This document shows, in pieces, positions 7,276 to 57,463 of a DNA stretch of 64,000 nt; position 1 is the first letter of the stretch, and the number at the start of each line of letters is the position of its first letter. This DNA comes from Phycisphaerae bacterium (lineage in GTDB: Bacteria > Planctomycetota > Phycisphaerae > Phycisphaerales > Phycisphaeraceae). Made by a program: the position numbers and the translations under genes. The notes under the pieces are model-generated. The model did no database searches and was not told where the DNA came from. It saw only the letters and a list, made by a program, of their open reading frames with translations. The stretch lies in the NCBI GenBank assembly GCA_030426385.1, contig JAUHYI010000003.1, forward strand, positions 62,001-126,000, in the 5' to 3' direction.

Positions 7276-9972
7276 TTATCGACCAGCGCCAGCGATTTTC
7301 CATGCCAAACTCATTCGCGTGACATCGATTTCGCTTTTGCGCATGCGTACCGTCACCGGTTCCAATTCGATACTTGCCAACTCGATTGGCTCGGTCAGAA
7401 TTTCAATTTCATCGGCCAACGCCTGTTCCAGTTCAGCCAGGTGTTCCTGAGCCACTGCCACATCATCGCGCGCGTGGGCAATGTCCTGTTTCTGCGTGCT
7501 GGCATAGCCCATCCGCCTGGCACTGGTTGAGGTCGATCGACTGATGCGCTTGCCGAATAAGCCACTGAGGATTGTTTTGAAAACCGTGAGCCAGGCGCTG
7601 GTCCGGGCGCTTTTATATTGTTGCGTCTCTCGGCCCACACGCTGTTCAGCTTTGCGAAGTTTTTCCGAGGCGCGTTTTAATTTCGTTGCATATCGAGCGC
7701 GACATTTGTCTGCGGACTCTGCTTGTTGTTGGCCGATCATCGGCATCAAGCGTTGGCGAAATGCCTGTTCCGTTTCGTTCGCATGCGACGTGACACGTAA
7801 TCCCTTGTGACGATAGATCGTCAGGGCATGCTCGCGATACAGATGCTTTTTAAATTCGCGCGTCCATGTTTTGTACGACGCCGACAGCGCTGCTGGAATC
7901 GGTAACGGGCCGAATGCTACGCCTGCCTCGGGCTTGTCGCGCAAATCCAGCTCATCGGCGTGCCGTCGCGATTCTTCCCACACGTCATCCATCACCGCGT
8001 CATCGAGTTTCGCCAACCACGTCACCGTTTCCCAATGATCCAACTGCAACGACACCCGCGCAAAATGCACCCGCACCGTCGCACACAGATAGGGCTGATA
8101 TTTTCCGGGGTTTTCTCGGGTTTTATCGCTGTTGTCATGGTCAACGACAAACACCTCATCAACCCCCGGCTCAACCGCAGGTTTATTCGCCGGTCGGGTG
8201 GTTGTGGTGCGTTCATCCGGCGAGGCGTCACGGGGTTGTGCCATCGCGTTCGTGGCAGACTTTTGCTCGAGCGCTTGCGCAGGTGCTTGCTCAGACACTT
8301 GGTCAGAATCGATTCCCGTTTCCGTTTCCTTTTCTGTTTCCGTCGTGCTTCGCCGATCGCGCATCAACATGCCGATCTGCTGCCCAGTCATCGGCCCACG
8401 CAAATATGACATCGCCCAACGCGTGTGAAACACCATCGGCCCACCCCGATCATGCACGTTATTCATCACGAACACCCGCCCCGGCAAGCCCGACAACATC
8501 GCATCCAACTGCGAACGATCAAAACCATGCTGCGCCGCAGATTCCAAACCGTCCAACACCCGGTCCTTGTCACGCTGCGTTTGCAATCGACCCAATAGCC
8601 ACGTCCCGCAATTCGACAATCCCTTGTAATCCAGATCCACCGGGTTCTGCGTCGCTAACACAATCCCAAGCCCAAACGCACGGGCCTGTTTCAACAACGT
8701 CAACATCGGCGTCTTGCTCGGCGGATTGGCGGTCGGCGGAAAATAGCCAAACACCTCATCCATGTACAAAATCGCTCGCAACCCCGATGAACCCGGCTGC
8801 GTTCGCATCCAACTCAAAACCTCCCCCAACAACAACGTCACAAAAAACATCCGCTCCGCATCATTCAAATGCGCAATCGACAAAATCGACAACCTCGGCC
8901 CCCCCACATTTCCCCCCACATTTCCCCCTGCATTCCCTCCCACATTCCCCCCTGCATCCTCCGCGCTTTCATCCGCCGCTTGCGGCTTAGCCTCTCCCAC
9001 TTTTAACTCTTCACTTTTAACTTTTAACTCGCCCTCCCCATTCCCCTCCCCGCCCCACAATAAATCCTGGATCGACAACGCATCGCCCTGCATCCATCGT
9101 TCAAAACCCGGCGATGCCAACAGATTGTTGATCCGCATTGCCAACCCCACCCGATCTTTGGCAGGATAAAACGTATTCACATCGAGCACGCCCACCTGTT
9201 CAAACGGCGGTTCCTGCACCCAGCGAATCAACGCAGGCAAATCCACATCGTTCCCCGCTTCCCATTGGTGCGACACGATGTTGGCGAGCAAAATATATTC
9301 CCGGCTCTGCAGCGGATCGGCATCGATATCCAACATCGCCAATAGCCCGCTGATCGCGCCGTTGATTTTTTCTCGCAGCGCTTCGGCATCATCACGCACG
9401 GCTTGTTCAGGCACCGCAAAACTTCGCAACACACTGATCGGCAACCCGCCACTGTCTCCGCCCGCGCCCGGCGTATACACCACCACATCCGCGGCCTCTT
9501 TCAATCGCTGAATGCGCGTGCCATCCTGATCCCATGACGCTAATCCTTCGCGCCAGGTCGTGGCCACTTTTTCCGCATAATCACCCACGTCCATCTGTTT
9601 ACGCGCCGCTTCTTCGGCAGAAACCCACGGCGCAAAATCATCCGCACTCAGATTCGGAAACGTCAGCAACAGGTTTGATAGGTCGCCCTTGGGATCGATG
9701 ATGATCGCAGGCACGCCATCCAACGCCGCTTCTTCCAACAGTGAAACGCACAACCCCGTTTTGCCTGAGCCGGTCATGCCCACGCACACCGCATGCGTCG
9801 TCAGATCCTTCGCGTCGTACAACAATTTTTCATCATCGATGCAACTGGCCTGCGGGTCGTAGCGCTTGCCCAGATAAAACGACCCCAACTTTTCATAGGC
9901 AGGCAATTCCGGGCTATCGGTCTGATCAGGCTGTTCGATCGGTTCGGTCATGACCCGCATAGTGTATCGCAT
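7276..9972 (-). CDS. HerA/FtsK-type P-loop ATPase (DUF87-like) with repeat-derived insert
   Basis: A large P-loop ATPase of the HerA/VirB4-like superfamily, 898 residues. Walker A is GMTGSGKT (65-72), with an IIDPKGDLSNLLLTFP segment typical of HerA-like proteins. Walker B is ILYMDEVFGYFPP (about 397-410), followed by LATQNPVDLDYKGLSNCGTWLLG, the sensor region. The C-terminal third is charged and helical, with coiled-coil-like stretches (KLKRASEKLRKAEQRV; AQEHLAELEQALADEI). Residues about 305-355 are an in-frame low-complexity insert made of LKVKSEELKV and GGNVGGNAGGNVGG, matching the dispersed repeats. Possible starts are M1, M5 and M8. It lies 12 bp after the LEPR-XLL gene and may share its transcript. 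The cellular role is unknown; DNA translocation is only a family-level expectation. Confidence 0.85.
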   Translation of the reverse strand: MRYTMRVMTEPIEQPDQTDSPELPAYEKLGSFYLGKRYDPQASCIDDEKLLYDAKDLTTHAVCVGMTGSGKTGLCVSLLEEAALDGVPAIIIDPKGDLSNLLLTFPNLSADDFAPWVSAEEAARKQMDVGDYAEKVATTWREGLASWDQDGTRIQRLKEAADVVVYTPGAGGDSGGLPISVLRSFAVPEQAVRDDAEALREKINGAISGLLAMLDIDADPLQSREYILLANIVSHQWEAGNDVDLPALIRWVQEPPFEQVGVLDVNTFYPAKDRVGLAMRINNLLASPGFERWMQGDALSIQDLLWGGEGNGEGELKVKSEELKVGEAKPQAADESAEDAGGNVGGNAGGNVGGNVGGPRLSILSIAHLNDAERMFFVTLLLGEVLSWMRTQPGSSGLRAILYMDEVFGYFPPTANPPSKTPMLTLLKQARAFGLGIVLATQNPVDLDYKGLSNCGTWLLGRLQTQRDKDRVLDGLESAAQHGFDRSQLDAMLSGLPGRVFVMNNVHDRGGPMVFHTRWAMSYLRGPMTGQQIGMLMRDRRSTTETEKETETGIDSDQVSEQAPAQALEQKSATNAMAQPRDASPDERTTTTRPANKPAVEPGVDEVFVVDHDNSDKTRENPGKYQPYLCATVRVHFARVSLQLDHWETVTWLAKLDDAVMDDVWEESRRHADELDLRDKPEAGVAFGPLPIPAALSASYKTWTREFKKHLYREHALTIYRHKGLRVTSHANETEQAFRQRLMPMIGQQQAESADKCRARYATKLKRASEKLRKAEQRVGRETQQYKSARTSAWLTVFKTILSGLFGKRISRSTSTSARRMGYASTQKQDIAHARDDVAVAQEHLAELEQALADEIEILTEPIELASIELEPVTVRMRKSEIDVTRMSLAWKIAGAGR
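8897..9045 (-). repeat. Composite repeat inside the HerA-type ATPase gene
   Basis: In coding orientation: GTTAAAA, GTTAAAA, GTGAAGA, GTTAAAA, then the CTAAGCCGCAAGCGG hairpin unit (8973-8990), then four GGGGGAAATGTG-type blocks. The order matches the intergenic block at 17.2 kb. It is read in the only heptamer frame without a stop, giving LKVKSEELKV and then GGNVGG repeats. Confidence 0.85.
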
Positions 9973-17221: not shown

Positions 17222-17419
17222 GGGGGATAATCAGTTAAAAGTTAAAAGTTAAAAGTTAAAAGTTAAAAGTTAAAAGTTAAAAGTTAAAAGTTAAAAGTTA
17301 AAAGTTAAAAGTTGGGAAGTGCTAAGCCGCAAGTGTGTGGGTGAGTGGGTGGTGTGCAAACGTCAATTGCGCGGGGGAAACGTGGGGGGGCGTGGGGGCG
17401 TGTGGGGGGGGGCGGGGGG

Positions 17420-26394: not shown

Positions 26395-27882
26395 ATGGCC
26401 CATACCCCACGCATTTTGGTTGTTGATGATGACCCGTTGGTGGTCGAATCATTGGCGGAATTTCTCGAACACGATGGTCATCGAACGACCACCGCGTGTG
26501 GTGGCGAAGAAGCGCTGGCGTTGTTGGAAAATAATGCGCACTCGCCCGATCGGGATCCATTTGGATTAGTCGTGTCGGATATCAATATGCCTGACCTCGA
26601 TGGGTTGGAATTGTTGAAGCATCTGCGCAAAACATATGAAGACCTGGCCGTCATCATGATCACGGGGTTCGGCAAAATCGAATCCGCGGTCGAAGCGATC
26701 AAGCTGGGAGCCGCAGACTATCTGACCAAGCCTTTGGTCGATGAAGAACTGCGCATCGCGGTCAGCAAAGCCCTGCGTCAGCATCAACTGCTCGCAGAAA
26801 ACAAATCGCTCAAAGATCAATTGTCGCAACGCTATGGCATTGAAAATGTCGTGGGTGCAGACTACCGCATGCAAAAGGTGTACGACCTGGTGGATGCGGT
26901 CGCAGACAGTCGGACGACCGTCTTGGTCAGCGGCGAATCGGGCACGGGTAAAAGTTTGATGGCCCGCGCGATTCACACGCGCAGCCCACGTGGCAGCGGG
27001 CCATTCGTAACCGTCTCGTGCGGTGCGATTCCGGAAACGTTGATGGAATCGGAATTGTTCGGACATGTAAAAGGCGCGTTCACGGGGGCAGATGCAGACA
27101 AGCCCGGCAAATGTTTAGCGGCCGATGGCGGGACATTGTTTATCGATGAGATCAACAGCGCGACCCCTGCGTTGCAATTGAAATTATTGCGTGTGTTGCA
27201 GGAAAAGAAATTTGAGCCGATCGGATCGACGCAGACGCAAGAGGTGGATGTGCGTTTTGTGTTGGCGACGAATAAGCCATTGGAAGATCTGGTGCGGGCC
27301 GGTGAATTCCGTGAGGATTTGTATTACCGGATCAATGTGGTGAATCTGGCGATGCCATCGCTGCGCGAGCGAGTGGGTGATATCCCGCTGTTGGCTGAGC
27401 ATTTTCTCACGAAATATTGCGAACAAAATAACAAACAGCGAACCATCGGCCACGAGGCGATGGACGCGCTGCGTGGCTATGATTGGCCGGGGAATGTGCG
27501 TGAATTGGAAAACGCGATCGAGCGCGCCGTGGTGCTGAGTCGTCAGCCCCAGATCACCGCCGCCCATTTGCCCGAGTCGATCACAGGTGAGGTCGGCGGT
27601 TTGGGATTAGGCCGCAACCACGCGGGACATGCTGGATCCCATCCGGCGGGGAATATGGGTGAGCACGTGTGGGGGAACGTGGGGGGGGGGGGGGGAAATG
27701 TGGGGGGGGGGTGGACGCCGATGCCGTTAGCCGAGGCGCTGCAAGAGCCTGAGCGATGTATCCTGTTAGCGGCGTTGGAAGCGAATAATTGGAACCGTCA
27801 GGAAACCGCGGGGCAACTGGGGATTAACCGAACGACGCTCTACAAGAAGATCAAACATTTTCGATTGGATGAGCCGGGGTGA
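26395..27882 (+). CDS. NtrC-family sigma-54-dependent response regulator
   Basis: Three-domain transcription activator, 495 residues. The receiver domain (1-125) has acidic D11/D12, phospho-acceptor D62 (VVSDINMPDLDG) and the Lys in LTKPL. The AAA+ domain has Walker A GESGTGKS (about 181-188) and GAFTGA (about 228-233), the loop that contacts sigma-54. The C-terminal Fis-type helix-turn-helix reads NRQETAGQLGINRTTLYKKI. Between AAA+ and helix-turn-helix (about 402-442) is a Gly/His-rich insert encoded by G-rich repeat including a 15-G tract. A length change there would frameshift away the DNA-binding domain. No partner kinase is adjacent, so the signal is unknown. Confidence 0.95.
   Translation: MAHTPRILVVDDDPLVVESLAEFLEHDGHRTTTACGGEEALALLENNAHSPDRDPFGLVVSDINMPDLDGLELLKHLRKTYEDLAVIMITGFGKIESAVEAIKLGAADYLTKPLVDEELRIAVSKALRQHQLLAENKSLKDQLSQRYGIENVVGADYRMQKVYDLVDAVADSRTTVLVSGESGTGKSLMARAIHTRSPRGSGPFVTVSCGAIPETLMESELFGHVKGAFTGADADKPGKCLAADGGTLFIDEINSATPALQLKLLRVLQEKKFEPIGSTQTQEVDVRFVLATNKPLEDLVRAGEFREDLYYRINVVNLAMPSLRERVGDIPLLAEHFLTKYCEQNNKQRTIGHEAMDALRGYDWPGNVRELENAIERAVVLSRQPQITAAHLPESITGEVGGLGLGRNHAGHAGSHPAGNMGEHVWGNVGGGGGNVGGGWTPMPLAEALQEPERCILLAALEANNWNRQETAGQLGINRTTLYKKIKHFRLDEPG
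27630..27716 (+). repeat. G-rich block inside the NtrC-family gene
   Basis: GGGGAATATGG, GTGGGGGAACGTG, a run of 15 G (27681-27695), AAATGT, then a run of 10 G (27702-27711). It is read as GNMGEHVWGNVGGGGGNVGGG. Confidence 0.85.
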
Positions 27883-36116: not shown

Positions 36117-36929
36117 ATGGCACACCATGCGACCCCCGCAAATCCCAAATCCATGGCCACACGCCGACGCGAGATTCTCGCATTGCTCAACGAGCGCGGC
36201 GAGTGTTCCATCGATCAATTGACCGATCGATTCGGTGTCAGTGGGATGACAATTCGCCGGGATTTGCAGGATTTGGCGGATCAGGGCGATATTTTACGCA
36301 CCCACGGCGGGGCTGCGGCGACCCGGCGCATCAGTTTCGATTTCCAGTTTCTCGACCGCATGCAGCATCAGGCGGAGCCGAAAAAAAACATTGCCGACCG
36401 CGTGTTCAAACTAATCACGCCGGGCCAGTCAATTATGCTCGATTCGGGCACCACCACGCTGGCGATCGCCAATCGATTGCGGGCCATCGGGAAGTTAACC
36501 CTGGTCACGACATCGCTGCCTATCGCGTCGGCCCTGTTCGGCGCGGATGATATCGAGGTTGTGTTGCTGGGCGGTTCGTTGCGACAAAATTCGCCCGACC
36601 TGACCGGTGCGGTCACATTGCACAGCCTGGATCTGATTTCCACGGACCTGGCATTTATTGGGGCGGATGCCATTGATGAACAGGGCAACGTCTATAACCA
36701 ATCGCAGCAGGTTGGTTTGATGTTGCAAAAAATGATGGGGGCTGCGCGGGAAACCTATCTCGTGGCGGACCACAGTAAATTTGCCAAACGCGATTTGATG
36801 CGCTTCGGCCATGTTCGTGATTTCACCGGCATCATCAGTGACAACGAATTGCCTGCGGTGGTCGCCAAACAAATCAAGCGCGCGGGCGGCCAACTGCATG
36901 CCAGTGCGAACAAGGGAACCAAATCATGA
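36117..36929 (+). CDS. DeoR-family transcriptional repressor
   Basis: Sugar-phosphate-responsive repressor, 270 residues. The N-terminal winged helix-turn-helix is RRREILALLNERGECSIDQL then TDRFGVSGMTIRRDLQDL, with the classic family start. RTHGGAAATRR follows it. The C-terminal sensor domain, a phosphosugar-isomerase-like fold, has MLDSGTTTLAIANRL and VLLGGSLRQNSPDLTGAV. It heads the run DeoR-nagA-like-nagB-like-aminotransferase-kinase and overlaps the next gene as ATGA. It probably controls both this operon and the divergent ceramidase-like gene; the inducer would be a phosphorylated amino sugar or its product, which is inference. Confidence 0.93.
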   Translation: MAHHATPANPKSMATRRREILALLNERGECSIDQLTDRFGVSGMTIRRDLQDLADQGDILRTHGGAAATRRISFDFQFLDRMQHQAEPKKNIADRVFKLITPGQSIMLDSGTTTLAIANRLRAIGKLTLVTTSLPIASALFGADDIEVVLLGGSLRQNSPDLTGAVTLHSLDLISTDLAFIGADAIDEQGNVYNQSQQVGLMLQKMMGAARETYLVADHSKFAKRDLMRFGHVRDFTGIISDNELPAVVAKQIKRAGGQLHASANKGTKS

Positions 36930-38260
36930 CTTCGCCCTCGCCCTCGCGCTCTTTTGTCATTGAAAACATTCGCGGCATCGATCCGATGCGCGGCGTCGTG
37001 GCCACCTCGATTTCCGTTCGCGATGGAAAGATTCACGCGATCAATTCGGAGGTCGACAACCAAAACAATACTGATTCAATCCCGCGCATTGATGGGCGGG
37101 GGATGACCCTGACCCCGGGCTTGATTGATCTGCACATTCATGGCGTGCATCACTTTCTGTTTGAACAAAGCGCTGACGAGCTGGTTAACTGCCTGGCGGT
37201 TTTGCCGCGTTACGGCGTCACGACGGTTTTGCCTACCTGTTACCGCGTGATGGAACCGAAAACCATCGGCAAACTGGCGGAACTGACTGAGGCGATGATC
37301 AACGCGCCCACCGAAAACCATGCGTATGCTCCGGGTTTTCATCTGGAAGGACCGTTCCTGAAATTGCCCGGTGCTGGCGCTGCGACGCTCGATGGTGATG
37401 TCGGTTTTCTGGATGAATTGATTGCCGCAGCGCAGGGGCGCGTCAGTGCGATGTCGATCAGCCCGGATGTGAAAAACATCATTCCCGTGATCGAGCGCTT
37501 GGCCGAAAAGAACATCGCGGTCTTCATGACTCACACGCACGCCTCGGCCGATGAAACGCAAGCCGCCATCGATGCCGGAGCGCGACATGCGACGCATTTT
37601 TATGACGTGTTTCCCGTGCCCGATGAAACTGACCCCGGCGTGCGCCCCGTCGGTGCGGTGGAGGTCATTCTTGCCGACGATCGCGTCAGTGTTGATTTCA
37701 TTTGCGACGGCGTACATGTGAATCCCTATGCCATTCGTGCCGCGCTGGCTGCCAAGCGTGGCGGTGTTGAAGCCGAAAAATTCACCGATGGAAAAGTTGG
37801 GAATGCGGGGGGAAGTGTGGGGGGGGTGGGGGGTAGTAGTGGGGGGGGGAGGCCGGGTGTGATTTTGATAACGGATGCGAATATTGGTGCGGGTTTGCCG
37901 GACGGTCGTTATGACACGTCGTGGGGATTTGCCGTGCGAATTGAAGCAGGCAATGCCGCCCGCATTGATGATCCAGGCACCGAACGCGATGGCGGTTTGG
38001 CTGGCTCAGCATTGACGATGGATCAGGGGATCGCGAATCTGACGCAATGGTTGCCGAGGCAAACCGAACAAGCGATCTGGGCCATGGGATCGCGTGGGCC
38101 TGCCGACTTGGTGGGGCTATCGGATCGCGGGCGTCTGGAAGTTGGCGCGGTCGCTGACCTGGTGCTATGGCAAACCGACGACGCTTCGCCTCATCGCAAA
38201 CCGCGTGCAGTCATGACATGGGTGAACGGCACCTGTGTCTATCAATCCGATACCGCGTGA
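36926..38260 (+). CDS. nagA: N-acetylglucosamine-6-phosphate deacetylase-like amidohydrolase
   Basis: Removes acetate from N-acetyl amino-sugar phosphates; 444 residues. The amidohydrolase metal site is visible as H70-x-H72 (LIDLHIHG) and E141 (GFHLEGPF). HTHASADETQAAIDAGARHATHFYD holds further His ligands and ILITDANIGAG holds the catalytic Asp near 317. Residues about 281-310 contain a Gly-rich insert (GNAGGSVGGVGGSSGGGRPG) encoded by the G-rich repeat, immediately before the catalytic Asp strand. The start overlaps the DeoR stop as ATGA. The exact substrate may differ from GlcNAc-6-P because the downstream NagB-like protein is atypical. Confidence 0.87.
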   Translation: MTSPSPSRSFVIENIRGIDPMRGVVATSISVRDGKIHAINSEVDNQNNTDSIPRIDGRGMTLTPGLIDLHIHGVHHFLFEQSADELVNCLAVLPRYGVTTVLPTCYRVMEPKTIGKLAELTEAMINAPTENHAYAPGFHLEGPFLKLPGAGAATLDGDVGFLDELIAAAQGRVSAMSISPDVKNIIPVIERLAEKNIAVFMTHTHASADETQAAIDAGARHATHFYDVFPVPDETDPGVRPVGAVEVILADDRVSVDFICDGVHVNPYAIRAALAAKRGGVEAEKFTDGKVGNAGGSVGGVGGSSGGGRPGVILITDANIGAGLPDGRYDTSWGFAVRIEAGNAARIDDPGTERDGGLAGSALTMDQGIANLTQWLPRQTEQAIWAMGSRGPADLVGLSDRGRLEVGAVADLVLWQTDDASPHRKPRAVMTWVNGTCVYQSDTA

Positions 38261-48806: not shown

Positions 48807-48903
48807 AAGTCAAAATTAAAAGTGAAAAGTTAAAAGTAGGAGAGAGGGGGAAGTGTGAAGGAGAAATGTGAAGGGGGATTGTGAGGGGGGAAATGTGGGG
48901 GGG
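48807..48903 (+). repeat. Heptamer-like units and G-rich block between tsaD and asmA-like gene
   Basis: TAAAAGT-type units including GTGAAAA GTTAAAA, then GGAGAAATGTGAAGGGGGATTGTGAGGGGGGAAATGTG-type blocks. The promoter-like hexamers of the next gene overlap the end. Confidence 0.8.
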
Positions 48904-48909
48904 TATGAT
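48879..48909 (+). promoter_or_regulatory. Putative leaderless promoter of the AsmA-like gene
   Basis: TTGTGA (48879-48884), a 19-bp G-rich spacer and TATGAT (48904-48909), with the ATG at 48916 exactly 6 nt beyond. Confidence 0.45.
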
Positions 48910-48915
48910 GGGGGA

Positions 48916-51900
48916 ATGAAATCCGATAGAAGAATAGTTAAGAAGTTGATCCTCGCGCTGGTGGTGATGGTTTTACTATTGGGTGTTTTGACGGTATTTG
49001 CCCCGAACTTGGCCAGTCGGTTTGGCCGAGGTGCGGTGGCGAATGCGATCAACGATTCGATTCACGGGCACGTGACGATTAAGGGGTTGTCGTTGCGGTG
49101 GGGTGCGGGTCAGTTGATCGAAGGCGTGCGGGTTTTTGATGTGGCGGGGATGCCGATTGGAACGATCGAACAAGTGCGACTGCGGGATGCGTCGCTGTGG
49201 GGATTGTTGCGCGGGCACCTGGATCTTGGGCGCGTGGAGGTCGTGATCGATACGATGACGATCGTGCGCGAAGGGGATGGCCCGACGAGTATCGAACAGT
49301 TGCTGGTCGATGCGGGCGAAGAGAAAACCGCGACGGCAGAAGGTGTGAACGCGGGTGGGCATGTGGGTGGGCATGTGGGGGAACATGTGGGGGAACATGT
49401 GGGGGGGCATGTAGAGGGTAATACGGAGGGATTCGTGTGGCCTGATGGGTTGCACATGAATTTGCAGGTGGAGGCCAACAGTCTTGTGTGGTTGGATGGA
49501 AGTGGGCCTGCGTCGTCGATTGATGATGTGGTGTTGTCGATTGACTTGCGTGATGCCCGAAAGATTGCCGCGTCGCTGTCAGCGATGGTGAAGCAAGACG
49601 AGTTTGCAGGTGGAATCGCGATTGATGGGGTGGTGACGGATTTGTTTGATGGGAGTGGGGCGTTGGATGTGGCCGCGGCGCAGATGAAATTTTATTCGGA
49701 GCTGACGGATGTGCCGGTGTTGGCGTTGGATCGGATGTTCCAGCAGGAGGGGAAGCTGGTGGCAATGTTGGGACAGGTGTTGAACACGCGTGCGGATATT
49801 CATGGTGCGTTGCTGAGTCCTGCGATGGATGTGGTCGCGACGTCAGCCCATATGCAGATGCAATTGGCAACGAGCCTGAGCGCGGATGGGCAATCGATTG
49901 AATTGCGTGAGCCGGGGCAGGTGGTGTTGACGGTGACGCCTGAGTACTGGTCGATGGTGGATGATCAGACACGGCTGGTGGATGGGTTTGATGTGCTGGT
50001 GGATTTGAAACAATTGCGAATCGCCCGTGATACAACGGGTGTTGTGCTCAATGAATCATCATTGGAAGCGGCAGCCTCGGTGCGTGGTGTGGTGATTGAT
50101 GCGGGGCAAACGGTTGGGCAAATCAAGTGGCTGGATACGCAGGTGTCGGTGGTTGGAGCGCGTGTGGGTGAGCGTTTGGATGTGAAATTTTCAACGCGCG
50201 CCGAGCAGGGGGAACAGTCGGGCACGTTTGATGTGGCGGGACATGTGTTGAACCTGGGGAACCACGCGGGTGGATTGTTGGCAATGTCGGGAGCGATCGA
50301 TGGGCGGGTGTCAGCAGTGCCCGTTGAGGCGGTGGATCGATTGTTGGGCATGGATGGGCGGATGTCAGCGATGCTGGGCACGGTGTTGGATGGCCATTTG
50401 CAACTGTCGGGTGATGCGGATGAAAGGCAGGTGGTTTTGTCGGTGCAGGCAGAACAACTGACTGCCGATGCCACGATGCGGTACGCGGATGGCGTGTTGC
50501 GTAGCGAGTCGGGGCAAGCGATGTTGCGCGTGACGCCGGGCGCGTGGTCCGCGATGTTTGGGAAAGGTAGCGAAAGTGATAAAGGTGAAAAACAAAGTGT
50601 GAGCGAATGGAGAATCGCGGGGGGGAATGTGGGGGGGAATGTGGAGGGAAATGTGGGGGGGCAGGGGGAGGTGGTGGTGCGAGCGGATTTGGCCCGATTG
50701 GATTGGCCGGTTGACGAGGGGATTGCGGGGTTGGCCGCGGAGTTGCGTGTGAATGCGGGAGCGATGGATTTAGTGATGGGTGAATCGGAACGAGTGGTTT
50801 CGATGAAAGAAAGTGCGTTGACGTTTACGGTGGGAAGCGCGAGCGATGGGCGGGATGCGCAGGAGGTATTGGCGAGCGGGAAAAAATTGGCGATGACGTT
50901 GGCGAGCGGCGCGGTGGGGCTGGGTGATGTGCAGATGGAAGTGGTGGGCGTTTATCGCGATGGGGTGTTGCGCATTGATAGAAATGACGGCGGAAAAATG
51001 TTGGCAACGTTGCAGGCTGAGCCGGGCGCGTGGGGCGAATTGTCCGAAGCAGTGACGGTGGGTTTGGATGTGCGTGAATTGTTGTGGCCGATCGATGATC
51101 CGAAGGCGGGTCGGTTAGCGATGTCAGCCAGGGTTTCGCCGATGGGTTGGTCGGGAGAGTCGGAATTGGCGGGTGTGCGTGTGGCGGACGTGGTGATTGA
51201 TGTGCCAAGCGTGGGGTTGAGTGAGCCAATGGTGATCACCGCCCGGGGGCGCGTGATGCAGGAGATGGTTGGTGACGCGCGCGATGGGAATGCGCGTGGT
51301 GGTGATCAAGGTGAGGTATTAGCGCGGGTGACGGTGGCCGATGTTCTCGATGGTGCGCAAGTGCGCGAAGCGGTGTTGGAGTTGTCGAATTTGTCCATGG
51401 GGATGGTTGATCGATTAGCGCAGCAGGATGGGATGTTGGTGGCGCTTTTTGGCGAGCAGTTGGATCGCGTGTCAGTGCGGATGGTGCCGGGCGATGACGG
51501 ATATCTGTTGGATATGTCGGGCGAGGGGGAGGTTGGGGTTGGGATGGGGGTGGGGGGGGCGAATGTATTTTTGCAGGCATCGACGGCGAATCTGGATGTG
51601 CAACTGTCGGGCGTGTATGTGGCGGATCGGTATGTGATGTTGTTGCCGGAAAGTTTTGTGGGTTTTGAATTGACGCCTGCGATGGTGGATTATTGGCAGC
51701 GTGAGAAAATGAACACCGGTGGGAATGAGCAAGCATATAAAAAGTTAGAAGAACGGCCGAGGACTACCGGTGGAAGTGCGGGGGGAAATGCGGGGGGAAA
51801 TGTGGGGGGGGTGGGGGGGTGGGTTTTGGAGCGGGGGATGCCGATTCGGTTGGCGGTGGATGCATTGCATTGGCCGTTGGGTGGGTCGATGGAGGTGACG

Positions 51901-53352
51901 AAGCGCGAGTCGGATGACGCGATGCAGTTGGCATTGCGCGTGACGAGTGATGGCGGAGTGTTGCGTAATCCCGCAACGGGTGAGTCGGTGCGATTGAGTG
52001 ATGTATCAGTGCGGGTAGTGCCTGAACTGGGTAAGCGTGGGATAGCGAAAAGTGCCAGTGGAAATAGTGAGGACAGTGGGAAAGGTGAGAGGCGTGAGGC
52101 GATCGCGGTGCATGCGATGACGTCGTTGCAACGGGTGGGGCGTGATGGCAGTCTGGGGACAGCGGGGCGTATTGAATCGATGACGACATTACGGCAATGG
52201 GACAATGCGGAGACGCGATCGGTGACGACGCGGACGAGTGCGACGCAGTTACCGGTTGATTTGATCGAAGCGTTGTCGGGATTGAGCGGGCAATTGGTGC
52301 CGGCATTGGGACCGACTGCCGACGTGACGATTGTGGGGCAATACCCAGGCGATATGGATATTTCAGCGCGGAGTCCGAACGCGACGTTGCATGTGCCCGC
52401 GACGATCGATCGGTCGATGGTGCTGACCTTGCGTGAGCCGATGGTGTCGACATTGATGCTGACCGCATCGTTGCGGGATTCGTATTTAGCGGGGATCCAT
52501 CCGGTGTTGGCTGACATTGTGGGAGCCGAGTCGCCGGTGAAATTGACGTTGGAGCCTGGCGGTTTGCGTGTGCCGTTGCATGGTAAGGATCGCGGCAAAT
52601 CGATGTGGGGCAGTGATGTGTCAGGCCTGTCGCTGCGTGGTGTTTTGGAACTGGGTGTGATTCAGATGAGCAGTCGAGGTTGGGTGCGTGATGGCGTGAA
52701 TCAAATCGTAGGGCAGTTGCTGTTGCAATCACGGCGTGACAAACGGTTAGGCGTGCGCGAGGAAGGCGTGACGTATCCGGTGACGTTTACGCCGTTGGTT
52801 TTTACGATTGATCAAGGGCGATTGACGACGAATGAATTATGGATGACCGGCGTTGATATCGCTGCGGGATTTCAGGGTTCAGCCAATCTGGTTACGCAGG
52901 AACAGAATTTTACGATGGGGCTGGTGGGTGCTTCGCTGGTGGCGGGAGGGCAGTCGTTTTTGGTGGGCCGAGTGAATGTGAAGGATATTATTGATGTGCC
53001 GATTGGCGGGACGATGCGCAAGCCTGTGCTGGATAAAAAATGGGTAGGTACGCAGGCGGCAGGATCGATTTTGAGCGGAACGCTGGGCGAGATTTCGTCG
53101 GAAGCGCAGATGGCGATCGATTTGTTTGGCGGTTTTATCAAACAACAAAAACGCAAGAAGAGCGGGTTATCGTGGCATCTGCCAGAGGCAGCGCGTGAAT
53201 TGGTGAACCGGACGATTCAAGAGCATGGCTCGCCACGCAAGTCCGCGGATGAAAGTGGAGCCAACGGGGGCAAATCGCCGCGTGATTCACAGACACAAGA
53301 AGAGCAGCCGAAGCAGCGACCGCGTACGATATTGGATGAGTTGTTTCAGTAA
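48916..53352 (+). CDS. Giant AsmA-like envelope protein with four internal repeats
   Basis: A 1478-residue protein with one N-terminal membrane helix (LILALVVMVLLLGVLTVFAP) and a long, beta-rich extracytoplasmic part. The start GRGAVANAINDSIHGHVTIK then GLSLRW, and a C-terminal FTIDQGRLTTNELWMTGVDI with GTMRKPVLDKKW, resemble AsmA/TamB-type lipid-transfer or assembly proteins. A motif close to DRxxxxDGxLVAMLGxxLD occurs four times (near nt 49720, 50330, 51405 and 52260), so the protein is built of repeated modules. Three Gly/His/Asn-rich inserts come from G-rich repeats (near nt 49350, 50620 and 51770). The C-terminal tail is basic and low-complexity. The in-frame upstream codons from 48868 are repeat-derived. 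Confidence 0.75.
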   Translation: MKSDRRIVKKLILALVVMVLLLGVLTVFAPNLASRFGRGAVANAINDSIHGHVTIKGLSLRWGAGQLIEGVRVFDVAGMPIGTIEQVRLRDASLWGLLRGHLDLGRVEVVIDTMTIVREGDGPTSIEQLLVDAGEEKTATAEGVNAGGHVGGHVGEHVGEHVGGHVEGNTEGFVWPDGLHMNLQVEANSLVWLDGSGPASSIDDVVLSIDLRDARKIAASLSAMVKQDEFAGGIAIDGVVTDLFDGSGALDVAAAQMKFYSELTDVPVLALDRMFQQEGKLVAMLGQVLNTRADIHGALLSPAMDVVATSAHMQMQLATSLSADGQSIELREPGQVVLTVTPEYWSMVDDQTRLVDGFDVLVDLKQLRIARDTTGVVLNESSLEAAASVRGVVIDAGQTVGQIKWLDTQVSVVGARVGERLDVKFSTRAEQGEQSGTFDVAGHVLNLGNHAGGLLAMSGAIDGRVSAVPVEAVDRLLGMDGRMSAMLGTVLDGHLQLSGDADERQVVLSVQAEQLTADATMRYADGVLRSESGQAMLRVTPGAWSAMFGKGSESDKGEKQSVSEWRIAGGNVGGNVEGNVGGQGEVVVRADLARLDWPVDEGIAGLAAELRVNAGAMDLVMGESERVVSMKESALTFTVGSASDGRDAQEVLASGKKLAMTLASGAVGLGDVQMEVVGVYRDGVLRIDRNDGGKMLATLQAEPGAWGELSEAVTVGLDVRELLWPIDDPKAGRLAMSARVSPMGWSGESELAGVRVADVVIDVPSVGLSEPMVITARGRVMQEMVGDARDGNARGGDQGEVLARVTVADVLDGAQVREAVLELSNLSMGMVDRLAQQDGMLVALFGEQLDRVSVRMVPGDDGYLLDMSGEGEVGVGMGVGGANVFLQASTANLDVQLSGVYVADRYVMLLPESFVGFELTPAMVDYWQREKMNTGGNEQAYKKLEERPRTTGGSAGGNAGGNVGGVGGWVLERGMPIRLAVDALHWPLGGSMEVTKRESDDAMQLALRVTSDGGVLRNPATGESVRLSDVSVRVVPELGKRGIAKSASGNSEDSGKGERREAIAVHAMTSLQRVGRDGSLGTAGRIESMTTLRQWDNAETRSVTTRTSATQLPVDLIEALSGLSGQLVPALGPTADVTIVGQYPGDMDISARSPNATLHVPATIDRSMVLTLREPMVSTLMLTASLRDSYLAGIHPVLADIVGAESPVKLTLEPGGLRVPLHGKDRGKSMWGSDVSGLSLRGVLELGVIQMSSRGWVRDGVNQIVGQLLLQSRRDKRLGVREEGVTYPVTFTPLVFTIDQGRLTTNELWMTGVDIAAGFQGSANLVTQEQNFTMGLVGASLVAGGQSFLVGRVNVKDIIDVPIGGTMRKPVLDKKWVGTQAAGSILSGTLGEISSEAQMAIDLFGGFIKQQKRKKSGLSWHLPEAARELVNRTIQEHGSPRKSADESGANGGKSPRDSQTQEEQPKQRPRTILDELFQ
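49345..49432 (+). repeat. G-rich block inside the AsmA-like gene, first of three
   Basis: Repeats of GGGCATGTGGGGGAACATGTG type, read as GGHVGGHVGEHVGEHVGG. Similar blocks in the same gene are at about 50617-50665 and 51766-51830. Confidence 0.8.
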
Positions 53353-56119: not shown

Positions 56120-57463
56120 ATGGCTGTTCCGTTGATGGATTTATCGAGTCAGCATGGCCCATTGATGGGTCAATTTGAGTCGGCGTTTAGTGAGGCTGTG
56201 CGGACGAATCGATTTGTGTTGGGGCCCGCGGTCGAGTCGTTCGAGCAAGAGTTGGCGGCGTATTGCGGTGCGGCTCATGCGGTGGGGCTGTCGAGCGGGA
56301 CCGATGCGCTGATCGTGGCATTGATGGTGTTGGGGGTGGGCCCGGGCGATGAAGTGATCACCAGTCCGTTTAGTTTTTTCGCGACAGCCGGTTCGATCGC
56401 GCGCGTGGGTGCGGTGCCGGTGTTTGTGGATATTGATTTGGATACGTTCAATCTTGATCCGGCGCAGATTGAGTCGGCGATCACGGCTAAGACCAAAGCG
56501 ATCATGCCGGTGCATCTGTTCGGCCAATGCGCAGCGATGGGCCCGATCATGGCGATTGGGGCCAAGCATGGTTTGCCCGTGATTGAGGATGCGGCGCAGG
56601 CGATCGGTGCGCGGGATATGGGGGGGGGGTTAAAAGTTAAAAGTGACGAGTTAAAAGTGGAGGAGGAGGGGAATGGTGATGAGGTGTGTCGGGAGAAAAG
56701 TGGAGGGGCCTATGGTGAGATTGGCTGTTTGAGTTTTTACCCGACGAAGAACCTGTCCGCGTTTGGCGATGGCGGTGCGTGTTTAACCAATGATGCGGCG
56801 TTGGCTGCGAAGATCCGATCCGTGCGGCAGCATGGCGAATCATCGCGCTATCAACATGCAACGGTGGGCGGGAATTTTCGTTTGGATGCGATTCAAGCGT
56901 CGATGCTGTCGATCAAGTTGCCGCATCTGGATGGCTGGGTGGCTGAGCGTCGCGCGATTGCAGGCCGATATAACGCATGGTTAGCGGATGTGCCAGGGAT
57001 CGTGTTGCCGGTTGAGGGTGGCGAGTTAGATGGGTTAAAAGTTAAAAGTGAAAAGTTAAAAGTGGGGAATCGCGATGTGCGGGAAAATGTGAAGGTGAAA
57101 GTGGAGGGGGAAATGTGTGCGGGGGAAATGTGGGGGGGGGGGCATGTGTTTAATCAGTACACGTTGCGGGTGGAGGATGGGAAGCGTGATGCGTTGATGG
57201 CATATCTGGGCGAGCGCAAGATTGGCTGCAAGGTTTACTATCCGCTAGCCCTGCATGAACAGCCATGCTTCGCGCAATTTGGTCAGGCGGACAAGGCATT
57301 GCCGAACACGCGGGCCGCGACGCAGAGCGTGTTGAGTATTCCGATGTATCCGGGTTTGAGCCAAGCCCAGCAGCGGGAAGTGGCGGACGCGATCGTGTCG
57401 TTTGCCGATACATTAAAAGTGTCGAAGAAAGCATCAAGCGCCTCGCCCGCAGGATCAGCGTAG
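56120..57463 (+). CDS. DegT/DnrJ/EryC1/StrS-family aminotransferase with two repeat inserts
   Basis: PLP-dependent sugar aminotransferase of the type that makes amino sugars for surface polysaccharides; 447 residues against about 370 normally. LSSGTDALIVALMVLGVGPG, FVDIDLDTFNLDP and EDAAQAIGA are conserved, and FYPTKNLSAFGDGG holds the PLP Lys (near 211). The excess length is two in-frame inserts: residues about 170-196 (LKVKSDELKV and acidic sequence), just before the GEIGCLSFYPTK strand, and about 303-340 (LKVKSEKLKV, VKVKVEGE, GGG), just before HVFNQYTLRV. Both are copies of the composite repeat and sit in surface loops. GAGG precedes the ATG. mlaF-like follows 47 bp downstream. Confidence 0.92.
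   Translation: MAVPLMDLSSQHGPLMGQFESAFSEAVRTNRFVLGPAVESFEQELAAYCGAAHAVGLSSGTDALIVALMVLGVGPGDEVITSPFSFFATAGSIARVGAVPVFVDIDLDTFNLDPAQIESAITAKTKAIMPVHLFGQCAAMGPIMAIGAKHGLPVIEDAAQAIGARDMGGGLKVKSDELKVEEEGNGDEVCREKSGGAYGEIGCLSFYPTKNLSAFGDGGACLTNDAALAAKIRSVRQHGESSRYQHATVGGNFRLDAIQASMLSIKLPHLDGWVAERRAIAGRYNAWLADVPGIVLPVEGGELDGLKVKSEKLKVGNRDVRENVKVKVEGEMCAGEMWGGGHVFNQYTLRVEDGKRDALMAYLGERKIGCKVYYPLALHEQPCFAQFGQADKALPNTRAATQSVLSIPMYPGLSQAQQREVADAIVSFADTLKVSKKASSASPAGSA
56620..56706 (+). repeat. Composite repeat insert 1 in the DegT gene
   Basis: Ten G (from the G of an ATG codon at 56620), then GTTAAAA, GTTAAAA, GTGACGA, GTTAAAA, GTGG and GGAGGAGGGGAATG. The heptamer order equals that inside the HerA-type ATPase gene. 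Confidence 0.88.
57034..57142 (+). repeat. Composite repeat insert 2 in the DegT gene
   Basis: GTTAAAA, GTTAAAA, GTGAAAA, GTTAAAA, GTGGGG, then GGGAAAATGTGAAGG, GGGGGAAATGTG twice and an 11-G run (57132-57142). It is read in the same frame as insert 1. Confidence 0.88.

Follow-up and report, generated by a model that had tools for sequence, protein, structure and literature searches.

The question raised by this locus was what a composite repeat is doing inside the gene for a HerA-type ATPase, between the P-loop and Walker B, where the original prediction had placed it, and how it came to be there. The gene lies in the window, that is, the whole 64,000-nucleotide stretch of DNA analysed here. 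The gene, the insert and the modules of the insert are as follows:

7276-9972, minus strand: gene for a HerA-type hexameric DNA-translocase ATPase, carrier of the insert (open reading frame of 898 residues; Pfam DUF87 and HerA_C; Foldseek)
8899-9039, minus strand: in-frame insert of 47 residues (141 nt), amino acids 312-358 (homologue alignment; AlphaFold pLDDT)
8995-9029, minus strand: heptamer module of five units, AGTTAAA AGTTAAA AGTGAAG AGTTAAA AGTGGGA, encoding LKVKSEELKVG (sequence)
8976-8990, minus strand: CTAAGCCGCAAGCGG module with a 4-bp stem and a CAAG loop, encoding AKPQAA (sequence)
8899-8957, minus strand: G-rich 12-nt array of about 4.5 GGGGGAAATGTG-like units, encoding GGNVGGNAGGNVGGNVGG (TRF and repeat search)

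The 898-residue product matched DUF87 with 31.1 bits against a Pfam cut-off of 23.2, and combines a Walker A motif of the GxxGxGKT type (GMTGSGKT, amino acids 65-72) and a Walker-B-like motif (LYMDEV, at about amino acids 402-407) with a DUF87/HerA-like fold. The best Foldseek matches were the HerA structures 4d2i (E = 2.6e-10), 8uae and 7wrw, and 376 stretches related to the gene were present in the genome_contigs collection. Between the P-loop and the Walker-B-like motif the protein holds the stretch GEGELKVKSEELKVGEAKPQAADESAEDAGGNVGGNAGGNVGGNVGG, and ELKVKSEELKVGEAKPQAADESAEDAGGNVGGNAGGNVGGNVGG sits in the same interval. GMTGSGKT and the MDEV of the Walker-B-like motif are unchanged across 36 aligned ATPase sequences, and the ATPase presumably still works despite the insert.

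The insert itself proved to be real, and falls inside the predicted interval of 8890-9060. Its length is a multiple of three and its frame is open from end to end. Comparison with sister sequences, one of two checks that had been proposed, showed the insert to be missing from all 86 aligned homologue entries (80 genome_contigs loci and hits in relatives, a few entries being overlapping loci of one gene). All of these have the identical length at the insert site, where they read approximately LL-T-EGK-PRLSI, and conservation of the same insert across the family was not found. The other check, structure prediction by AlphaFold, gave a pLDDT below 50 for residues 310-355, flanked by confident elements, and predicts the insert to be a disordered loop. 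The best explanation is that it takes the place of a tight turn beside a beta strand, giving a product with a long flexible surface loop.

The modules follow one another in a constant order: AGTTAAA heptamers, the word CTAAGCCGCAAGCGG and, after a short spacer, the G-rich array, which encodes GGNV or GGNA. In the third heptamer unit, AGTGAAG takes the place of an in-frame TAA. This module order is common to a copy between genes:

17233-17419, plus strand: intergenic copy with about 12 heptamers followed by CTAAGCCGCAAG, whose right arm is degenerate, then by a CAATTGCGC spacer and the G-rich array (sequence)

The common order supports the proposal that the HerA insert is a coding copy of a repeat that is also intergenic. 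The two had been described as having exactly the same arrangement, which holds for the modules; the right arm of the 17.2-kb “hairpin”, however, is degenerate (CTAAGCCGCAAGTGTG). The hairpin was itself overstated: the CTAAGCCGCAAGCGG word does lie between the heptamers and the G-rich part, but it forms a stem of 4 bp only, with an energy of about −6 kcal/mol. The whole insert folded no better than shuffled versions of it (z = +0.61), no Rfam score came near the gathering threshold, and no inverted repeats were found around the insert. Among the coding copies found in the window, the HerA insert is the most complete, as had been claimed, while outside the window it is surpassed by a full in-frame copy with the identical module order in a Mur-ligase-like gene (named from its motif only), which also has the CAATCACGC spacer module and is located on two near-identical contig ends, C44 and C63.

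Insert-like sequence matched nine other places in the same genome, an assembly of 5.19 Mb in 177 contigs. The 14-mer TAAGCCGCAAGCGG has 69 exact copies there, compared to 0.06 expected from composition and none for the reversed control, and AGTTAAAAGTTAAA has 205. The G-rich 16-mer GGGGGAAAYGTGGGGG is present in 135 copies here and in none of 297 other genomes of the class. A heptamer 17-mer is present in 196 copies here and was found in only eight of the 297, with at most eight copies in each. The repeat thus represents an expansion specific to this lineage: of the genomes searched, only that of this planctomycete has seen it multiply. Many copies are partial, with only heptamers or only the G-rich array. 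Beyond what had been predicted, the repeat is genome-specific, present in dozens of genes, oriented by strand and pinned to stop codons. The reading that we prefer, with a probability of roughly 0.78, is that a dispersed repeat, short, modular, non-autonomous and specific to this lineage, has an in-frame copy in the HerA gene, where it is tolerated as a flexible linker.

The arrangement of the modules is not random with respect to strand. Of 39 distinct copies of the word, 20 are followed by the G-rich motif on the same strand and three are preceded by it, and seven have heptamers upstream and none has them downstream; neither was found on the opposite strand. In the aligned flanks of these copies, CGC precedes the 14-mer and C/GG follows it. 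Intergenic copies within one contig mostly share a direction in the gene-level survey, which covered about 745 kb of stretches picked partly for holding copies, so that densities in it are enriched. The 69 words genome-wide also agree within contigs: out of 28 pairs, two were discordant (permutation p = 0.00015), and the HerA copy belongs to one of these two. Skew of G and T at third codon positions is the usual mark of the leading strand, and the direction of intergenic copies correlates with both skews in the genes (rho = 0.73 and 0.77, p < 0.001). The heptamer/G-rich strand of these copies is apparently the leading strand, and their strand bias probably mirrors replication.

The same orientation would fit local slippage, in which arrays arise de novo under weak selection and a leading-strand mutational bias, their likeness reflecting recurring polymerase errors. 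The arrays also differ in unit number and in period, and many copies are partial, so that slippage from short seeds could account for part of them. The Mur-ligase-like gene is relevant here too: over 256 nt, eight sites distinguish the C44 version from the C63 version, and every one of them falls in the element-bearing part or at its edge, with no difference in about 110 nt of flanking coding sequence. From this one locus, the clustering of substitutions suggests a faster rate of change in the repeat than in its host gene, as slippage would have it. What slippage cannot make are non-repetitive modules, namely the 14-mer with its preceding CGC and the CAATCGCGC spacer, that recur in fixed order and orientation in unrelated places, and we regard it as an unlikely source of the repeat. 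Because non-repetitive modules recur in fixed order, the dispersed repeat would rather have spread by copying.

Intergenic copies are anchored at both outer ends. Of 34 heptamer arrays, 25 have their 5′ end no more than 30 nt past a stop codon on the same strand, where 11.5 would be expected from random placement, and of 27 G-rich arrays, 21 have their 3′ end at most 30 nt from a stop codon on the opposite strand, where 4.4 would be expected (p ≤ 0.0002 for both). Six of the 21 anchored G-rich arrays abut the stop codon with zero bases between (GGGGGTTAG), and the array of the 17.2-kb copy ends at the TTA (stop codon) of an opposite-strand gene. Such anchoring was not seen at the inner ends of the heptamer and G-rich arrays. 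We considered the possibility that intergenic copies do something useful where genes end, for example as C-rich Rho-loading transcripts downstream of lagging-strand genes or as heptamer stops in all frames, the coding copies being by-products. Perfect heptamer arrays do stop all three sense frames, the complement of the G array is C-rich, and coding copies restricted to the sense strand would keep the mRNA from C-richness. However, neutral filling of unconstrained DNA would also abut stop codons, and 158 kb of contig C42 is almost copy-free, which makes a gene-end job rather improbable.

Inside genes, the dispersed repeat obeys additional rules. G-rich clusters are on the sense strand in 68 cases and antisense in eight (n = 76), a bias that could partly reflect our gene calls, made with a hexamer model trained on this genome with insert-bearing reading frames included, which could favour the G-rich strand; several host genes were identified independently by their families. 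The consensus G-rich array has no stop codon in any frame on either strand. The spacing between units was a multiple of three in all 38 in-gene intervals (12 nt in 32 of them) but in only eight of 35 intergenic intervals (p = 3e-13), where 10 and 11 nt were common within a range of 10-13 nt. Of 47 clusters away from the N-terminus, 38 use the frame GG-Asn-Val/Ala (p = 3e-11). Three perfect AGTTAAA units place a TAA in all three sense frames, yet all eight in-gene heptamer arrays keep an open frame, whereas 39 of 45 intergenic arrays are closed in every frame (p = 3e-6). The in-gene arrays mostly stay open through an AGTGAAA/G or AGTCAAA variant at the unit where the TAA would fall, and the resulting peptide recurs as LKVKSE(K/E)LKV or LKVKSQKLKV. 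This pattern of frame, spacing and stop avoidance bears the marks of reading-frame selection on a repeat that also lives outside the reading frame.

Copies are also present in other genes of the window:

27671-27711, plus strand: G-rich copy in an NtrC-like regulator (gene 26395-27882), where it occupies the linker that joins the AAA lid to the Fis-type HTH
37807-37848, plus strand: G-rich copy in a NagA-like deacetylase (gene 36926-38260)
50619-50671, plus strand: G-rich copy in a 1494-residue protein (gene 48868-53352), with a second copy at 51772-51809
57040-57067, plus strand: heptamer module encoding KVKSEKLKVG in the gene for a DegT-family aminotransferase (56120-57463), with a G-rich module downstream near 57120

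The 1494-residue protein had no Pfam match at E = 1e-5. Hosts of copies in the genome include Mfd, NasA (a molybdoprotein of the nitrate-reductase/formate-dehydrogenase type, with two copies inside), the NtrC-like regulator, NagA, the DegT aminotransferase, an epimerase and a DUF58/VWA protein; two more, an oxidoreductase and a membrane protease-like gene, were named from their look alone. Ten inserts in nine genes other than that of the ATPase are at sites that are absent or variable in relatives. The net excess over relatives was 30 residues at site 1 and 11 at site 2 of NasA, about 30 in NagA, 23 in DegT, 41-58 relative to most VWA proteins, 13-14 in the membrane protein and 5-20 in the NtrC-like regulator. 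For Mfd and one VWA relative, the corresponding loop is longer in other genomes, which have their own segments there (Mfd loci L241, L247 and L258 in genomes G006, G002 and G009; VWA gene L244 in G005), which suggests that these are shared insertion-tolerant sites. Most copies sit in length-tolerant loops; HerA is a sharper case, because its turn has an invariant length in the family. That invariance, by which the HerA site is more than a variable site of the relatives, is what speaks for an adaptive module of the ATPase, such as a docking or regulatory tail, but the same peptide in the functionally unrelated Mfd, nitrate reductase, aminotransferase and VWA protein and the predicted disorder of the insert make this very improbable.

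With the HerA insert taken as a dispersed repeat copied in frame, its history may be pictured as follows. The unit would consist of a heptamer array, CTAAGCCGCAAGCGG, a spacer and a G-rich array, and copies would arise mainly in one orientation relative to replication, with the heptamer/G-rich strand as the apparent leading strand. Their usual resting place would be unconstrained DNA beside stop codons, and copies landing in genes would persist only where the frame stays open and the peptide is harmless. There, the array would change by steps of three nucleotides, mostly 12, with its sense strand G-rich and its frame Gly-Gly-Asn-Val/Ala, and the variant heptamer (AGTGAAA/G or AGTCAAA) would remove an otherwise unavoidable TAA.

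Several possible sources were considered and rejected. Neither a transposase nor a target-site duplication or an empty site came to light in comparisons with relatives outside the genus, and the genome yielded no reverse transcriptase (PF00078) or TnpB/Cas12f-like gene (PF07282). Its only Y1 transposase-like gene (L173, G000:C38:13282-13500) is RAYT-like and scored 22.6 bits, below the cut-off; it is flanked by a different palindrome, GCGGGCGACGCGCAGCGTCCCG. A RAYT/REP origin was rejected on this single weak gene and wrong palindrome, in an assembly that is 94% complete and from which a gene may be missing. A near copy of the GCGGGCGACGCGCAGCGTCCCG palindrome is also present beside one 14-mer copy (L030). 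A viral origin was rejected as well: three viral contigs contain the exact G-motif, all of them lacking heptamers and showing unrelated surroundings, and the longer 14-mer pattern occurs in no viral contig. The 17.2-kb copy had no match among phage and plasmid records in a search limited by the low-complexity filter. Three genomes from another family of the same order (G041, G045 and G049) are also rich in the 14-mer TAAGCCGCAAGCGG. In the G041 locus read (L167) it encodes the PEP-CTERM tail LALSRKRR, and the loci read in the other two show other contexts. The PEP-CTERM link was taken as convergence, heptamers and G-rich array being present in none of the loci read.

Among known repeats, the closest in outcome are the Rickettsia palindromic elements (RPEs), which measure about 150 bp at most and in some cases have CGTC at the end (Ogata 2000, 2002, via PMC10969869 and PMC3733652). 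These short repeats are dispersed both between genes and, in frame, within many unrelated protein genes that presumably work (PMC10969869, PMC3733652). Both RPEs and the planctomycete repeat add a conserved peptide of tens of residues in frame to many unrelated genes. The planctomycete element, however, is non-palindromic and strand-oriented, with two tandem arrays and one small inverted repeat joined in a chain, its in-gene copies use almost only one strand and mostly one frame, and with its 4-bp stem and z of +0.61 it lacks the palindrome or stable hairpin of an RPE. It works like an RPE in outcome but is not one. REPs are known from Planctomycetes among others, including intragenic REPs that add 20-30 residues (PMC3733652). 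The planctomycete element shares with REPs and REPINs a short inverted repeat at high copy number, but it differs from these GTAG- or CGTC-tagged, RAYT-linked repeats in being mostly tandem array; neither tag was found on the 14-mer in the aligned flanks of the 39 copies, and no linked RAYT gene with the same palindrome was found.

The heptamer module on its own resembles the heptanucleotide STRR type, with 45 intergenic and eight in-gene arrays in the sample. According to the available part of the report on them, the TAACTGA heptamers of Beggiatoaceae and some Cyanobacteria are dispersed, mainly intergenic and rare in open reading frames, and place stops in all forward frames (PMC4679880). 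They lie mostly just upstream of start codons, whereas the planctomycete heptamers have another unit and lie just downstream of stop codons, and an attached 14-mer and G-rich array do not appear in that part of the report (PMC4679880). The quadruplex-type GGGAATC and GGGGA(C/T)T repeats of Xanthomonas and Nostoc likewise form dispersed G-rich arrays, which often lie no more than 50 bp from a stop codon, with no leading/lagging preference reported for those of Xanthomonas and under-representation on the coding strand of open reading frames in all three organisms (PMC4692102). The planctomycete arrays, in contrast, are leading-oriented and, within genes, are confined almost entirely to the coding strand.

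Selfish repeats that lie in frame within working genes are known chiefly from Rickettsia. Here, the same outcome is seen at high density in a 5.2-Mb planctomycete genome, with a differently built element, and the same repeated DNA fills the loops of many proteins without visible breakage. The rules are legible in the DNA (leading-strand orientation, stop-codon anchoring, sense strand, multiples of three, variant heptamer) and make the way in which dispersed repeats turn into protein sequence directly testable. For annotators, the warning is that genes with such inserts, here for example Mfd and NasA, are not necessarily chimeras or errors. It is possible, although we would not yet count on it, that in this single planctomycete lineage replication-oriented repeats spread without a known transposase, mark stop-codon gene ends chromosome-wide and, by frame-filtered insertion, supply glycine-asparagine linkers to dozens to hundreds of proteins. 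If true, repeat DNA would here have remodelled the entire proteome of a bacterium.

The almost repeat-free block of C42, at about 1-158 kb, has a lower GC content (0.52 vs. 0.55) and a lower tetranucleotide agreement (0.91), and its end does carry copies; the block may be recently acquired, conserved or partly foreign. Other small modules occur near the 14-mer and the G-rich array, including ACCCCGAACTTT-like sequences and GATTTCT and CTACTGT heptamers (e.g., L202, C123:50001-60000), and the intergenic regions of this genome look as if they were mosaics of several repeat families.
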